A stretch of DNA of 8,435 bases from an uncultured Bacilli bacterium (GTDB lineage Bacteria; Bacillota_I; Bacilli_A; RF39; UBA660): NCBI GenBank assembly GCA_949879835.1, contig CATLBU010000033.1:1-8435 (forward strand), in the 5' to 3' direction. The notes beneath the pieces are model-generated. The model was not told the origin of the DNA, did not search any database, and saw only the letters and a list, made by a program, of their open reading frames with translations. This document shows positions 682-7,808 of the stretch, piece by piece. How positions within the stretch are numbered: the first letter of the stretch is position 1; each line of letters opens with the position of its first letter. A program made the translations under genes and the position numbers.

Positions 682-705
682 AAGTCATGAAATGACTTCA
701 TTTTT
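682..705 (+). terminator. Hairpin with T tract, possible rho-independent terminator
   Basis: A perfect 7-bp stem (AAGTCAT at 682-688 with ATGACTT at 692-698, loop GAA) is followed by CA and five T residues (701-705). It lies just after the upstream genes and before the mobilisation genes, a sensible place to end transcription. The stem has few G-C pairs, so it would be a weak terminator. The two neighbouring inverted repeats suggest it may instead, or also, belong to the origin-of-transfer architecture. A rival pairing of TGAAGT (671-676) with ACTTCA (695-700) is possible. Confidence 0.4.
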
Positions 706-719
706 GCAAGTGCAAAAAT
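700..719. repeat. Near-perfect palindrome, 9-bp arms
   Basis: The arms ATTTTTGCA (700-708) and TGCAAAAAT (711-719) are perfect inverted repeats separated by AG. The symmetry suits binding of a dimeric protein, for instance one of the ribbon-helix-helix proteins encoded just downstream. It could also form a hairpin. The TTTTGC core recurs at 723-728, so this motif may be a repeated binding element in the region. Confidence 0.55.
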
Positions 720-725
720 AGGTTT

Positions 726-788
726 TGCCATCATTTTTATATGATAATATCCTTTTAAATAAAGGATTCTATCTAAAAAATGGTGGCA
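726..788. repeat. Long two-part inverted repeat of the putative oriT
   Basis: The outer arms are TGCCATCATTTTT (726-738) and AAAAATGGTGGCA (776-788), pairing over 13 positions with a single T-G mismatch. Nested inside are GATA (743-746) with TATC (770-773), and ATCCTTT (749-755) with AAAGGAT (761-767), closed by the loop TAAAT. The whole could extrude as one long interrupted stem. It lies 13 bases before the putative nick. In RP4-type origins an inverted repeat beside nic is the recognition site of the relaxase or an accessory protein, and this repeat fits that role by position and structure. Confidence 0.75.
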
Positions 789-808
789 TTATCTTATCCT
801 GTTGAATA
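726..808 (+). other. oriT: Putative origin of transfer (oriT) with IncP-like nick site
   Basis: The sequence TATCCTG|T at 795-802 matches the IncP-type nick consensus YATCCTG|Y, placing the predicted cut between 801 and 802 on the + strand. A strong inverted repeat (726-788) lies immediately 5', as in RP4 oriT, and a short tandem repeat (TTATC at 789-793 and 794-798) fills the gap. Two ribbon-helix-helix genes and a MobL relaxase gene follow directly, the usual setting for an oriT in MOB_L systems. The nick match is 8 positions and the cleavage position is inferred, not measured. If the + strand is the one transferred, the side carrying the relaxase gene would enter the recipient first. Confidence 0.6.
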
Positions 809-823
809 GTATATTTCATTATT

Positions 824-837
824 TGGAGGTTTTTGTG
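824..837 (+). promoter_or_regulatory. Ribosome binding site that fixes a GTG start
   Basis: TGGAGG (824-829) is followed by a five-base spacer and GTG at 835-837. This is the only good Shine-Dalgarno sequence for the first ribbon-helix-helix gene. It argues against the longer frame that begins with TTG at 802, which would start on the putative nick site itself. Confidence 0.75.
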
Positions 838-1158
838 AAGAATTTCACTCTTAGAATCAGTTCGGATTTGGACCAATTGCTTGAAATGTATATGAAGAAA
901 AATAATATTTCATCTAAGAATTTTGCTATCAATAATATGATTGAATATTATCTAAAAAATAATGATAGAATTATATCTTTTAAAGAATTAGATAAAAAAA
1001 TGGAAAGACTTTTAAAGCTAGAAAGTTTAAATAATAATCTTTTAGAACAACTATTTTCTAATCATGGATTTACAATGAATTTGGATAAAAAAGAAGATGC
1101 AATGTTAAAAGAAACTTATGATAATATTAGAAAAAAGTATGTTATTTTTATGGATTAA
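835..1158 (+). CDS. Ribbon-helix-helix relaxosome accessory protein (aux1-like)
   Basis: From the GTG start the product is 107 residues. The N-terminus has the ribbon-helix-helix layout: a strand (FTLRIS, residues 4-9), a helix (SDLDQLLEMYMKKNN), a turn with Ser (ISS) and a second helix (NFAINNMIEYYLKNN, to about 43). Proteins of this fold dimerise so that paired strands enter the DNA major groove. The remainder (about 49-104) is charged and helical, possibly a coiled coil for oligomerisation or relaxase contact. It lies between the putative oriT and a second small ribbon-helix-helix gene, so a nick-region binding factor comparable to the auxiliary proteins of pLS20-type systems is the natural reading. 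It may also repress its own operon. An antitoxin or plain repressor is the main alternative. Confidence 0.75.
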   Translation: MKNFTLRISSDLDQLLEMYMKKNNISSKNFAINNMIEYYLKNNDRIISFKELDKKMERLLKLESLNNNLLEQLFSNHGFTMNLDKKEDAMLKETYDNIRKKYVIFMD

Positions 1159-1163
1159 AATAA

Positions 1164-1406
1164 ATGGAATATGAAAAAAATATAAAAACAACTATCCGAA
1201 TTCCAAAAGAACTATTAGATAAAATTGAACTTTTTAAAAAGGAAAGTCAGCAAAAAACAAATAATATTTCCATTATTAGATTACTCGAATTAGGTTTAAT
1301 AAGATATCAAGAAGATAAAAATATTGAAGATTTTTTATTCCAAATTATAAAACAAAATAATTATATAATTGAATTATTAGAGGGAATAAATGAATCAAAG
1401 TCCTAA
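1164..1406 (+). CDS. Second small ribbon-helix-helix protein (aux2-like)
   Basis: An 80-residue protein with a typical ribbon-helix-helix start: strand KTTIRIP (residues 8-14), helix KELLDKIELFKKESQQ, then NISIIRLLELGLIRYQED as the second helix. The C-terminal third (EDFLFQIIKQNNYIIELLEG) is a hydrophobic helix that could mediate dimer or partner contact. It begins 5 bases after the previous stop without a clear Shine-Dalgarno sequence, so translation is probably coupled, and its last 17 bases overlap the relaxase gene. A pair of small DNA-binding proteins ahead of a relaxase suggests relaxosome accessory factors that position or stimulate the relaxase at oriT. Which of the two contacts the inverted repeats cannot be told from sequence. 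Confidence 0.7.
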   Translation: MEYEKNIKTTIRIPKELLDKIELFKKESQQKTNNISIIRLLELGLIRYQEDKNIEDFLFQIIKQNNYIIELLEGINESKS

Positions 1407-2841
1407 AATTTTTTTTAGAACGAATCATAACTATGCTGTTAATAATAAGGATAATAATTATAGGGTTTACTATGGAAAAGATAAAAATGGTAAGGAACGA
1501 TATTTTCAATGTAAAGATAGAAAACAATATCAGGAATATTTAACGAAATATATTTGTGGCTTTTTTGATTATAGTAGAAATGAAGAAAAAGCAAAAATAT
1601 CAATGTTTGATTATTATACTGGTGCAAAAAAATCAGATGAAATTTCAAAAGAAAAGAAAATGAAAAGGGAAGAAATGATGATGCTTCCCAATGGGAAATT
1701 TGCTACGGATGAAGATTCTAAAAGAATGCAAAAAACTTGGGCAAGGTATTTAATAAATTCTAATGTGCATCAAATGGTTCTTTCATTTAACAATGACTAT
1801 ATAAATGATAATATTGAAATTGAGAAATTGCAAAAAGAAGTAACAACAAAAATTATGCCAATGTTTTTAAAAAAATGTGGATATCAAGAACCGCAAAAAA
1901 ATATTGATTGGGTTGTATCACTTCATTGCGATACCGATAATCTTCATTTTCATATTTCTTGTATCGAGAAGAGAAAATGTTATTTAAATTCTAAAAATGA
2001 ATTATCTTATAAAAGAAGATTAGAATTTACAGAGGATGAACAAAATTTTTTTAAAAGACAAACAGCTATAGCAATAGAACGTGAAAAATTATACAAGCCA
2101 GCTTTAATAAAAATAAATAAAGAACTTGAAGAATTTCAAAGTTATTTCAGCCCCAAAGAAAGAAATTTTATTTTAAAAAATTATAAACAAATTGATCTTG
2201 AAGAAAAAATTTTAAAACTTGGTTTTTTATTAAATGAAGTTAGGAGTACGGATAAAAAATATATTAAATATAATTCGTTGCCTAAAAACGAGATTGGTGA
2301 TGAAATTAGAAATTTGACTAAGGAAATAAAAAATCAATTGTTTAAAGATACAAAATTGCTTTTACAAAAAAAGAATATTATGAATAGTATTGATGAGTTA
2401 AATGAAATATTTAAAAAAATCGATACCGATAATAATATATCAAAAATAGGATTTGAATCAGCTTTAGATAATCAATTAATTCAAAGCAAATTAGAGCGAA
2501 CCGATAACTATGTTTTAAATGCAATTGTGAACCATGCTTTGTATAAAAATAAATATTTAAAGGATAAAATTGGAAAAGAAAATATAACCATTGAAGATTT
2601 ATTGAATGAACTAGCATTATCCAATTATAAAAAAGAATCTAATGAGAATTTAAAAAATAAAGTCGTAATAAAGAAAATGAGAATAAGAATTCTTAGAAAC
2701 CATTTTCAAAACGATTATGTATATAAAAAAAATATTGTAAATGCTCTAAATCGAATAGAGTATGAGCAAAACAAAGCTGCCAAACAATTTTATGAAATGT
2801 TTGGCAATGATGAAAAAGGTAAAGCTATTTTAGAGAGGTGA
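1390..2841 (+). CDS. mobL: MobL-family relaxase (MOB_L conjugative relaxase)
   Basis: The relaxase should nick oriT, bind covalently to the 5' end of the transferred strand and lead it into the recipient. The N-terminal half shows the MobL pattern: a Tyr-rich segment (QYQEYLTKYICGFFDYS, about 46-62, where the nucleophilic Tyr might lie), the LPNGKFAT element (99-106), the strand HQMVLSFNNDYI (127-138) and the metal-binding motif HCDTDNLHFH (179-188), in which H179, H186 and H188 form the three-His cluster of HUH-type relaxases. The remainder (about 230-483) is Lys/Glu-rich and helical, probably for partner contacts. Its length of 483 residues fits the family. The start has a good AGAGGG (1379-1384) and overlaps the upstream gene by 17 bases. 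It is followed closely by a leader ORF and an XRE regulator. Confidence 0.9.
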   Translation: MNQSPKIFFRTNHNYAVNNKDNNYRVYYGKDKNGKERYFQCKDRKQYQEYLTKYICGFFDYSRNEEKAKISMFDYYTGAKKSDEISKEKKMKREEMMMLPNGKFATDEDSKRMQKTWARYLINSNVHQMVLSFNNDYINDNIEIEKLQKEVTTKIMPMFLKKCGYQEPQKNIDWVVSLHCDTDNLHFHISCIEKRKCYLNSKNELSYKRRLEFTEDEQNFFKRQTAIAIEREKLYKPALIKINKELEEFQSYFSPKERNFILKNYKQIDLEEKILKLGFLLNEVRSTDKKYIKYNSLPKNEIGDEIRNLTKEIKNQLFKDTKLLLQKKNIMNSIDELNEIFKKIDTDNNISKIGFESALDNQLIQSKLERTDNYVLNAIVNHALYKNKYLKDKIGKENITIEDLLNELALSNYKKESNENLKNKVVIKKMRIRILRNHFQNDYVYKKNIVNALNRIEYEQNKAAKQFYEMFGNDEKGKAILER

Positions 2842-5001: not shown

Positions 5002-7215
5002 TTGTTGTTTATTCAACCCAGGTTATCAAAAACAAAGGTAAGTAATAAAAATGAACATGGTTCCAGTAAATTTGCAGATTTAAAAGAAATAAAAAAGACT
5101 TTTGATAAAGAAGATTTAGAAAATATTGTTGAGGGTGGCTTTCCAATTTGGTTTGAAAAGAAAAATGATAAGTTTACTTCAGTTTATGTTGATAACAAAA
5201 GTCCACACCATTTACTTATCGGTTCTACAGGATCTGGTAAAAGTGTAACGGTCGTTCTTGTAGAGTGTTTAATGTTTGCTCAAGCTAAAAAACAACATTC
5301 TGTAATTGTTACTGACCCAAAGGGAGAAATATTTAGAGCAACCAGTGAAGTATTTAAAGATAATGGTTATGATGTAATTACAATTGATTTTAGAAATCCA
5401 AGAAAATCAACAAAGATAAATATCATGCAACCAATTATTGATGAATGGAAACTTCATTGTGAAAATCATAAAAAAAGCATATTTTTAATATCTTATTTGT
5501 TTAAATCAAAAAAAATAGAATTTAATAAATATCTAGATGAAGAAAATTATCGAAAAGAGATAAATAAAAAAATTAAATTTGAAAATATAATTCAAGAATT
5601 TATAAGAGATAATAATGATTCTATAATTACAAAAATAGAAGATTCAAATTTTTTTCGAAATGCTTATTTTAAAGAAGAGAAAAAAGAAAAAAGCCTTAAA
5701 CAATATTTAGGTTCATTATCTGATAAACAAATTATTCAATTAATAAAAGATAATTTAAATCAAAGTTCTATACATGAAGCTGAAGCGAATAGACTAACAA
5801 TATCCTTGGCAGATTTAATATTTGTTGAAAAAGATTCTAAAGATCCGTTTTGGATTACCTCTAGTAAAAACCTTTTTATTGGTATTGTTGGTTTGTTTTT
5901 AGAAGATTTTAAAGATGGAAAAATTAGAGAAGAACAAATAAATATTTCTAGTGTTAAGAAATTTCAAAACTCTTCTTTAATAAAAGAAAATCAAAACTAT
6001 TTGCAGAAGAACGTCAATAATAGAAAATATGGTTCTTTATCAAAAGATTACCTAACATCAATACTTTCGGCATCAGAAAATACCTACAAAAGTGTTACTG
6101 CTGTATTTGGTTCAAAGACAAATATCTTTGATGACTTAAATGTAGAAAATATAACAAGTGTAAGTGAGTTTGAATTTTCTAGTTTAGGGAAAAAACCTAC
6201 AGCACTTTTTATTATTGTTCCAGATGAGGACAGGTCGTATTTTCAACTTGTAACAATTATTATCGGTATTTTATATAAAGATTTAGTCAAGTTTGCAAAT
6301 CAGCCTGAAAATGGTGGAGCATTACCTGTACCGATAGAATGGATTTTAGATGAATTTGCCAATTGTCCGCCTTTGGATTCCATAGAAGCCCTAGTTTCAG
6401 TCGCTCGAAGCAGACGAATGCGTTTTCAATTTTTCATACAAAGTTTTAGTCAGTTAGATCAACTGTATGGAAAAGAAACATCTTCAATAATTCAAGATAA
6501 TGCTGCACTAACTTACTTAAAAACGAACAGTATCGAATGTGCAGAAATAATTAGTAAAAAAATCGGTCGTGCTACAATTACCACTTCTTCTATTAGTCAA
6601 AATACTGACCCGTTTAAAGTTGGAGCAAATAGAACTGAATCTTTAATGGGAAGAGAACTTTTAACTGCAAATGAAATTATTAATTTAAAATATAAAACTA
6701 TCATATTTCCAACAGTTTCAAATCCTATTTTTCGTGATACTTATCTTTATAGTGATATTTTTCCAAAATATAAAAATTCTAAGCCTATTGAAAGAAAAGA
6801 AAATGTTTTAAAAAGGATAACATCAAATTATTACACAGTAGAAGACATGAGGAAAAATGAGGAGAGTAATTTTGATAGAAATGTTGAATCTCAATTTAAA
6901 AAAATTGATGATGATTTCGATAAAATCTTTTCGAGCAATTTGAGAAATAGTAGAAATGTTTATAGAAAAAATAAAGTATTAAAATTTGGACAATGGATTA
7001 TGAAAAAAACATCTTTTAGCAGGTTTATAGAAAAACAAGAAATGATAGATAACAATGTATTTCAGTTAAAAATAAATAAATTGCTTAATATGTTGGAACA
7101 AAAAGAGATAATTTCAGAATTAGAGGATAACTTACAAGCTAGCATTATTTTAGATAGATTAAGTAAACAAAGTATTGTGAATATCTTTGAAGAGGAAAAA
7201 GAATGCGTAAGATAG
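5002..7215 (+). CDS. virD4: VirD4/TraG-type type IV secretion coupling protein (T4CP)
   Basis: This membrane ATPase links the relaxosome to the type IV secretion channel and pumps DNA. Numbering from TTG 5002 (737 residues): HGSSKFADLKEI (19-30) matches the family's HGSA-W opening; GSTGSGKS (74-81) is Walker A; VIVTDPKGEIF (101-111) is the conserved DPKGE strand; residues about 145-300 form the helical all-alpha domain, ending in DPFWITSSKNLFIG; WILDEF (447-452) is Walker B; FIQSFSQLDQLYG (478-490) is the sensor-like motif with Q480 and Q484. Past about 600 it has a charged tail. The start listed is only the first ordinary codon, inside the membrane segment; the real protein probably begins near 4927. 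It overlaps the sortase gene by 13 bases. Confidence 0.95.
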   Translation: MLFIQPRLSKTKVSNKNEHGSSKFADLKEIKKTFDKEDLENIVEGGFPIWFEKKNDKFTSVYVDNKSPHHLLIGSTGSGKSVTVVLVECLMFAQAKKQHSVIVTDPKGEIFRATSEVFKDNGYDVITIDFRNPRKSTKINIMQPIIDEWKLHCENHKKSIFLISYLFKSKKIEFNKYLDEENYRKEINKKIKFENIIQEFIRDNNDSIITKIEDSNFFRNAYFKEEKKEKSLKQYLGSLSDKQIIQLIKDNLNQSSIHEAEANRLTISLADLIFVEKDSKDPFWITSSKNLFIGIVGLFLEDFKDGKIREEQINISSVKKFQNSSLIKENQNYLQKNVNNRKYGSLSKDYLTSILSASENTYKSVTAVFGSKTNIFDDLNVENITSVSEFEFSSLGKKPTALFIIVPDEDRSYFQLVTIIIGILYKDLVKFANQPENGGALPVPIEWILDEFANCPPLDSIEALVSVARSRRMRFQFFIQSFSQLDQLYGKETSSIIQDNAALTYLKTNSIECAEIISKKIGRATITTSSISQNTDPFKVGANRTESLMGRELLTANEIINLKYKTIIFPTVSNPIFRDTYLYSDIFPKYKNSKPIERKENVLKRITSNYYTVEDMRKNEESNFDRNVESQFKKIDDDFDKIFSSNLRNSRNVYRKNKVLKFGQWIMKKTSFSRFIEKQEMIDNNVFQLKINKLLNMLEQKEIISELEDNLQASIILDRLSKQSIVNIFEEEKECVR

Positions 7216-7808
7216 GTATAACACTAATTATTGTTGCATTGTTTAGTTTTATATTTATAAAAATCTTTGATTTTAAAAAGGACAAAGAAGTTGAAAAACA
7301 AATCGATAAATATATTGAAATTACTAGTATAAAGGAAAATCAAGAGGAAGAAACAATTATTGAAGTCGAACCTGTAAAAAAAGATAATAAAACATCTAAT
7401 TTAAATTATGTAGCAATATTAGAAATTCCCATCATCAATTTAAAAACTGGAATGGTCGAAGCTACAGATAATTTTAAATCAATTAATTATGCAGTAAGTA
7501 TAGATAAAAGTAGTCAGTATCCAAACATTGAAGGCAATCTTATTATATATTCACATTCAGGCAATAGTCGTATTGCCTTTTTTAAACATCTTAATCAAGT
7601 AAAAATAGGAGATAAAGTATATATTTATTTTCATGGTATTAAATATGAGTATAAAATCTTTACAAATTATGAAATAGAAAAAGTGGGAAAATTAAATGTG
7701 ACTTATCCAAAAGATAAAAGATATATAACATTAATAACTTGTAATCCTAATAAAAAAGGATTTCAAATTGTATTAGTTGGCGAACAAATAAATCAAGAAA
7801 AATATTAG
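7203..7808 (+). CDS. Membrane-anchored sortase, catalytic Arg position altered
   Basis: Sortases are surface transpeptidases that cut a sorting signal and attach proteins to the cell wall or to pilins. This one has 201 residues: an N-terminal membrane anchor (residues 4-20), a charged linker (about 24-66), and the sortase barrel from NYVAILEIP (68-76). The catalytic His is H118 in IIYSHSG, followed by the usual FFKHLNQVKIGDKVYIY stretch, and the nucleophile is C180 in TLITC. The third catalytic residue, an Arg normally found shortly after the Cys just before the last strand, appears to be Gln188 (GFQIVLVGE). Ribosome binding site AGAGGA (7191-7196). Its 13-base overlap with the coupling protein gene implies coupled expression. 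No LPxTG-type substrate is visible in the window. Confidence 0.85.
   Translation: MRKIGITLIIVALFSFIFIKIFDFKKDKEVEKQIDKYIEITSIKENQEEETIIEVEPVKKDNKTSNLNYVAILEIPIINLKTGMVEATDNFKSINYAVSIDKSSQYPNIEGNLIIYSHSGNSRIAFFKHLNQVKIGDKVYIYFHGIKYEYKIFTNYEIEKVGKLNVTYPKDKRYITLITCNPNKKGFQIVLVGEQINQEKY

Follow-up and report, generated by a model that had tools for sequence, protein, structure and literature searches.

A predicted transfer origin with an IncP-type core in front of a relaxase near MOB_L

Introduction

The oriTs of the MOB_MG plasmids pWBG749, pMG2200, pMC189, pHTbeta and pGL5 are described as a branched hairpin built from the inverted repeats IR1, IR2 and IR3, lying 5' of an 11-bp core, with an IR2 that varies among subtypes and relaxase-less copies on other elements (PMC4652767, PMC8136818). 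The published core is CTTATGCTCTT; oriT clones of pWBG749 that lacked it failed to be mobilised, and recombination together with deletion narrowed the pWBG749 nic site to 16 bp, CCTTATGCTCTTACGG, which enclose this core (PMC4652767). One of these plasmids, pHTbeta, was later assigned to MOB_L (PMC5313138). In the MOB_L plasmid pLS20, oriT, two auxiliary genes and the relaxase gene follow one another in that order (PMC5313138, PMC5675868), the relaxase has a catalytic tyrosine and a histidine motif (PMC5313138), and Aux1 binds a 25-bp stretch containing TGGTACCA (PMC5675868). The published pLS20 nick lies on the opposite strand, about 40 nt downstream of CTTATGCTC, where it was located by a drop in sequencing signal (run-off) beside a G+C-rich hairpin (PMC5313138). 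A different sequence, YATCCTGY, is given as the nick region of RP4/VirD2-type MOBP relaxases (PMC3772185). Finally, the term iOriT denotes an integrated mobilizable element that has an oriT but no relaxase (PMC11389934).

Here we analyse a stretch of 8,435 bases (the window), probably from a gut Bacilli-like bacterium as guessed from its relatives, in which the cut signal is by its sequence of the IncP type while the relaxase is near another family, MOB_L. As far as the open-access literature was searched, this core variant appears new in its group: a search for TATCCTG, Firmicutes and relaxase returned no paper that, judged by title and abstract, deals with a MOB_L oriT. With the locus comes an oriT signature that can be searched for in uncultured gut Bacilli, a group whose transfer is difficult to study.

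Results

The features on which the comparison rests are the following.

700-719, plus strand: IR1 hairpin (arms 700-707 and 712-719, loop 708-711), from the fold; TTTYGCAAGTGCRAAA in 10/10 close-clade loci
726-738, plus strand: left arm of IR2, from the repeat search and own-partner pairing across 9 loci
749-767, plus strand: inner hairpin within IR2 (arms 749-755 and 761-767), from the fold
776-788, plus strand: right arm of IR2, from the repeat search, pairing and fold
793-803, plus strand: candidate oriT core CTTATCCTGTT, with CNTATCCTGTT conserved and a nick predicted at 801/802 by homology
835-1158, plus strand: aux1, small RHH-like auxiliary protein, GTG start after GGAGG
1164-1406, plus strand: aux2, small protein, RHH-like by eye (TTIRIPKELLDKI)
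1390-2841, plus strand: relaxase of 483 residues with invariant Y61 and the three-histidine motif H179/H186/H188
5002-7215, plus strand: VirD4-like coupling protein of the CD1115 family (NF045973, 270 bits; cut-off 250)

The original prediction placed a match to the nick consensus, TATCCTG|T, at 795-802, and this stands: TATCCTGT on the plus strand is the sole YATCCTGY on either strand of the window. The 13-position repeat that it paired between 726-738 and 776-788 is equally real (92% complementary, one mismatch), as is the nested stem, which the fold places at 749-755/761-767. By itself TATCCTGT is not significant, since 0.43 copies of YATCCTGY are expected in the window and 69/200 shuffles hold at least one; the repeat is unremarkable by itself, since a rival pair (I11), likewise of 13 nt and 92% complementary, lies within the same 1,200 bases. 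We rejected either one alone as evidence, both being near chance in this AT-rich window. The single-stranded DNA fold of 696-813 has an energy of -21.2 kcal/mol (z -6.48), equalled by none of 200 shuffles. This fold contains the hairpin at 700-719, which had been missed, so that the earlier 5' boundary of the candidate oriT, 726, was too short. Further upstream, a conserved ORF (145-618) without a family match has homologues in five related loci (L001, L002, L004, L006 and L035).

Searches with the window relaxase gave six relatives in GTDB genomes, with further ones from wider genome searches, and after removal of duplicates the close clade comprises 10 loci including the window (tree support 100). 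Each of the 10 loci, of 3.2 to 13.5 kb, holds exactly one YATCCTGY, and in each the hairpin TTTYGCAAGTGCRAAA is followed after 66-77 nt by TATCCTGT; as a chance control for this spacing, the motif was found in 139 of 50,000 composition-shuffled 120-nt stretches. The 10 loci do not amount to ten independent events, the relaxases of L003 and L005 and those of L001 and L002 being near-identical. CNTATCCTGTT is present in 7/7 rows of one alignment and 9/9 of another, and C(T/A)TATCCTGTT in 9/9 aligned clade rows. Conservation in 10/10 loci lifts the site beyond chance, unlike the motif or the repeat alone, and the check proposed with the original prediction, whether TATCCTG and the repeat are kept in relatives, came out in its favour.

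Base pairing is conserved as well. Among 9 sequences, 3 of the 8 base pairs of IR1 have had both partners changed, with a covariation score of 0.201 against a shuffled mean of 0.080 (0/500 shuffles as high; slid controls lower). For IR2, arms from the same locus pair with a mean score of 8.67 in 9 close loci, compared with 5.12 across loci and 3.93 after shuffling, and 4/72 cross-locus and 0/270 shuffled pairs reach the own-pair median. The corresponding means in 19 loci with a GCYC core (see below) are 8.84, 4.74 and 4.03, with 39/342 cross-locus and 3/570 shuffled pairs reaching the own median. L003, a near-copy of L005, and the GCYC rows L056 and L065 had been left out of this test beforehand. 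In 25 MOB_L plasmid loci, searched with a fixed window, arm pairing is weak (own 5.24, cross 4.07, shuffled 3.92; own median reached by 150/600 cross pairs). L001 and L002 are an informative pair, since their IR2 arms differ (TTGCACCA.../...TGGTGCAA versus TGCCGTC/GACGGCA) and each is still paired despite the near-identical relaxases. DNA folds contain IR1 and the IR2 stem in 9/9 close-clade sequences (z -3.15 to -7.59; L005, as a near-copy of L003, left out beforehand), and the core is unpaired, or unpaired except for its first base, in 7/9 minimum-energy folds and partly paired in L003 and L017. A CCTTAT..ATAAGG-like stem matching the inner hairpin is seen by eye in many relatives.

Loci of more distant relaxases (HMM score ~245-335) retain both IR1 and IR2, in most cases the inner hairpin too, and carry CTTATGCTC or CTTATGCCC at the place of the window's CTTATCCTG; where IR1 precedes the relaxase in these distant loci, CTTATGCYC is present in 18/18. 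Because pHTbeta has been placed in MOB_L, MOB_L plasmids were sampled for the core, 25 loci being picked by hand from match lists of 1,078 and 969 records. Of the first 19 sampled, 18 have TTATGCTC ahead of the auxiliary genes, and a GCTC core is found there in 22 of the 25, pLS20 included, with 3 on the other strand. Two near-identical Levilactobacillus brevis plasmid loci, L088 and L098, carry CTTATCCTGTT exactly as the window does, and the L088 relaxase, named MobL, scores 144 bits with PF18555. On this comparison of place and context, the window core is homologous to CTTATGCTC, the core of MOB_MG/MOB_L oriTs, and a modified version of it. The idea that an IncP-like nick before a MOB_L cassette would tie cleavage specificity between families is supported as to a link between families, the L. 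brevis MobL loci carrying CTTATCCTGTT, with the correction that the site is a homologue of CTTATGCTC and not a foreign IncP site. Another plasmid locus, the Lactiplantibacillus argentoratensis MobL locus L095, has CTTATCCTGAT behind a 17-nt repeat on the other strand, with ATTATGCCC nearby.

The likeness to MOB_MG extends to the layout, a branched hairpin 5' of the core and upstream of a cognate relaxase being found in the window. An RHH gene stands between oriT and relaxase in MOB_MG; in the window two small conserved genes take this place, with a tentative RHH assignment drawn from weak matches. The core itself differs, CTTATCCTGTT in the window against CTTATGCTCTT in MOB_MG, as do the hosts, and relaxase-less copies occur on resistance plasmids there and on genome contigs, often with serine recombinases, here. 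In pLS20 (L007, about 27650-27760), TGGTACCA, an inner hairpin, TGGTGCCA and CTTATGCTCTTT occur in the window's arrangement, TGGTACCA being the left arm at the homologous place and CTTATGCTCTTT standing behind the paired arms TGGTACCA/TGGTGCCA; pLS20 further shares with the window the gene order and the catalytic tyrosine and histidine motif, and differs in core sequence, in the published place of its nick and in its relaxase family, the window relaxase failing PF18555. With IncP/RP4 and VirD2 the window shares the nick sequence YATCCTGY with a 5' inverted repeat (PMC3772185). The histidine motifs are also alike, HCDTDNLHFHI in the window relaxase and HHDTDNLHIHI in an IncP TraI, but a profile comparison of these two proteins covers 34 columns only, at 23% probability, and the IncP gene order differs, oriT there separating traJ and traI from traK.

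In the relaxase, Y61, H186 and H188 are present in 69/69 aligned rows and H179 in 64/69. The original prediction that it looks like MobL holds for profile homology (MOB_L over the relaxase domain, 93%, E 3.4e-7, 209 columns) and for the catalytic tyrosine and histidines, but not for family cut-offs: PF18555 gives no match at E 0.01, and NF041498 (MobP2) scores 29.2 against a cut-off of 200. Judged by these models and profiles, the window relaxase is near MOB_L and a non-member. The same boundary runs through its superfamily, where PF18555 (cut-off 28.5) is passed by two of seven relatives (L022, 33.3; L061, 30.3), is approached by L049 (25.8) and has no match in the remaining four. The window relaxase had no tblastn match in PLSDB and was in none of 11 IMG/VR stretches. 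A Foldseek search gave no match at E <=0.001, which we counted against the oriT reading.

Homologues of aux1 lie between core and relaxase in 9/9 other close-clade loci, and homologues of aux2 are found in 7/9. The weak profile matches of aux1 are 2kel (E 0.012) and NikR 1q5v (E 0.66), both of which we take to be RHH proteins, and its predicted structure is poor (pLDDT 68, pTM 0.34). For aux2, which had no Pfam match and no PDB match under E 0.8, the residue pattern suggests an RHH protein. Directly 3' of the coupling protein gene lies a sortase-like gene (7203-7808), with the same neighbour in L001 and L002.

We also searched 193 genomes, a sample of one order, for the pattern GCAAGTGCRAAA-N60-90-TATCCTGY. 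It occurs 35 times in 26 of the genomes, and the reversed control gave 0. While 5 of the 35 sites adjoin a relaxase of the window's superfamily, two HMMs from this superfamily and a scan for the histidine motif found no relaxase near the other 30 (29 loci, L150-L181), the exceptions being an 85-codon relaxase fragment in L180 (E 5e-4) and a histidine-motif match in a 239-codon frame of L160. Flanks of at least 3 kb were available on both sides at 20 of these 30 sites, and downstream, the expected relaxase side, at 27. Among the 33 stand-alone or fetched pattern sites, IR2 scores at least 7 in 20 and between 4 and 6 in 13. The L022 subtype of the CCTG core, CTTATCCTGC, and the L017 subtype, CATATCCTGTT, are both represented. 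Clustering put a large serine recombinase among the eight nearest frames at 17/29 relaxase-less loci (a short frame only in L165 and L181), in many cases about 1.1 kb 5' of the site or 1.25 kb 3' of it; the two tested have PF00239 and PF07508. By tblastn, one representative recombinase matched 11/29 loci and 0/79 controls, the latter being relaxase-centred loci of similar total length, not random DNA.

These copies resemble iOriTs in having a predicted oriT and, often, a recombinase with no relaxase found nearby (PMC11389934), and are candidate iOriT elements. They are probably on elements that ride in trans. Copies with no relaxase found nearby and often a recombinase, which fit the iOriT description, are the strongest independent sign of a transfer origin, and they suggest that elements beyond those carrying a relaxase gene may be mobile. 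Other neighbour families at the relaxase-less loci are Fic and the YhcG nuclease. In L167 (G404:C15), two oriT-like sites (5923-6018 and 6546-6640) lie about 0.5 kb apart on opposite strands, and no relaxase was found.

To follow the core through evolution, we labelled a quick tree of 69 relaxases by strict core: 15 rows CCTG, 43 GCYC and 11 unlabelled. The CCTG list was named by hand, and GCYC comprises the other rows with a strict GCYC core except L095; L019 counts as GCYC though CATATCCTG is present on its other strand, and L027, L030 and L054, with CTTATCCTGC on the other strand and an aspartate (D) at position 181, stay outside the counts. A first, looser labelling, which gave both cores in 12/69 rows because ATATGCTC and similar matches inside genes were counted, was dropped. 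On the 69-relaxase tree the core changes three times, and twice among genome rows alone; the CCTG rows as one clade were rejected (AU p 2.6e-9), so the core switched more than once, with long branches making the deep joins unsure.

Scanning every column for a residue common to the three CCTG lineages led to position 181, the third of the H-x-D/N motif, which is D in 15/15 CCTG rows and N in 36/43 GCYC rows, the other 7 having D. It is N in L095, whose CTTATCCTGAT is ambiguous and outside the strict set, while in L035 an insertion leaves the place of the D unsure. The counterpart is D in an IncP TraI and N in RelLS20. Residue 181 as a core switch is a lead only: of three independent pairs, 2.2 on average agree in direction and none is opposed, which is not significant in a sign test, and the scan placed position 168 first, with P in 13/15 CCTG and 0/43 GCYC rows.

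Discussion

We consider it highly probable, from the sequence comparisons above, that 700-803 is the oriT of a conjugative or mobilizable element, with IR1, IR2, the inner hairpin and a predicted nick at 801|802. Within the relaxase clade, IR1, IR2 and CTTATCCTGTT keep their order, their spacing and their base pairing ahead of the auxiliary and relaxase genes, and the original prediction of an oriT gains support from this conservation and from the pattern in 26/193 genomes with a reversed control of 0, its function being a predicted one. Against it we set the weak arm pairing in the 25 MOB_L plasmid loci, the low IR2 scores at 13/33 pattern sites, the published place of the pLS20 nick and the near-chance count of core-like 9-mers in still more distant loci. 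By homology we infer the nick position, 801|802 on the plus strand. In the mechanism we propose, the auxiliary proteins would bind the repeats, the plus strand would extrude the branched hairpin, and Tyr61 of the relaxase would cut between G801 and T802; the relaxase would stay on the 5' end (T802), and the coupling protein would guide it into the recipient, so that the relaxase genes would enter first.

A nick outside TATCCTG, at a hairpin on the other strand as in pLS20, would leave CTTATCCTG as a binding or melting element of a genuine oriT; we judge this unlikely. It draws on run-off sequencing, which put the pLS20 nick after GAATCGGGGGCCGG beside GGCTTTTTGCtgccGCAAAAAGCC on the template strand (PMC5313138), and on the resemblance of the window's IR1, TTTTTGCaagtGCAAAAA, to the pLS20 nick repeat, and L092 keeps a similar TTTTGC..GCAAAA hairpin downstream of its core, though not the published nick context. 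The conserved core and the published pLS20 nick do not coincide, and CTTATGCTCTT is kept in 7/7 MOB_L loci compared, whereas the published nick context is recognisable in just two (pLS20 and L090); the pWBG749 nic was narrowed to the 16 bp around that core (PMC4652767), and in the window IR2 stands between IR1 and the core. The running text of PMC5313138 and PMC5675868, figures aside, does not contain TTATGC. On conservation, the core thus appears a better nick candidate than the published pLS20 site, which contradicts a published measurement and, on the same grounds, casts doubt on the MOB_L prototype's nick, which one oriT test set lists as a reference nic site (PMC7755788).

Two further readings do without transfer at this site. 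One takes the site for a hairpin that regulates the aux-relaxase genes in cis, as terminator, attenuator or operator. Its place directly upstream of them would suit this, and RHH proteins often autoregulate; yet 600-900 contains no terminator-like site and a single promoter-like one where 1.9 are expected, none of the five Rfam matches with E up to 1 comes close to its gathering score, no such relaxase was found at 30/35 copies, and the homologous core has been tested for mobilisation elsewhere (PMC4652767), which makes this very improbable. A rolling-circle double-strand origin, with the HUH protein serving replication instead of transfer, strikes us as the least credible reading of all. The HUH fold and a hairpin with a nick motif are shared with Rep proteins, and oriT also serves some conjugative elements for replication, but the same strand carries a coupling protein gene further downstream, and the relaxase matches MobP2/PF03432 models with no Rep model among its matches.

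Returning to the oriT reading, a wider proposal is tentative, and that all its parts hold together is possible but somewhat doubtful: the superfamily would have moved more than once between CTTATGCTC and the IncP-type CTTATCCTG at the same place, a change that may track residue 181; the core would be the real MOB_L nick and the published pLS20 nick misplaced; and recombinase-borne, relaxase-less oriTs in gut Bacilli would follow both CCTG subtypes. The site itself makes testable a general question, that of how a relaxase alters its cut sequence while staying functional.

An IMG/VR search gave five stretches with the CCTG-type pattern, none with a full IR1 hairpin, which we read as chance, and two with the GCYC-type pattern, of which L074 is convincing by eye and L073 is not. 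Extension of the core to 30 still more distant MobP2-like (NF041498) loci was rejected, a core-like 9-mer being present in 6/30, where 3.2 would be expected and 40 shuffles reached at most 6. One of these loci, L114, has an 11-point repeat ahead of CTTATCCTGTTT. In others, among them L102, L104-L106, L108 and L109, the MobP2-like relaxase frames contain several TGA codons and the genomes are small; these genomes probably use a code in which TGA specifies tryptophan.
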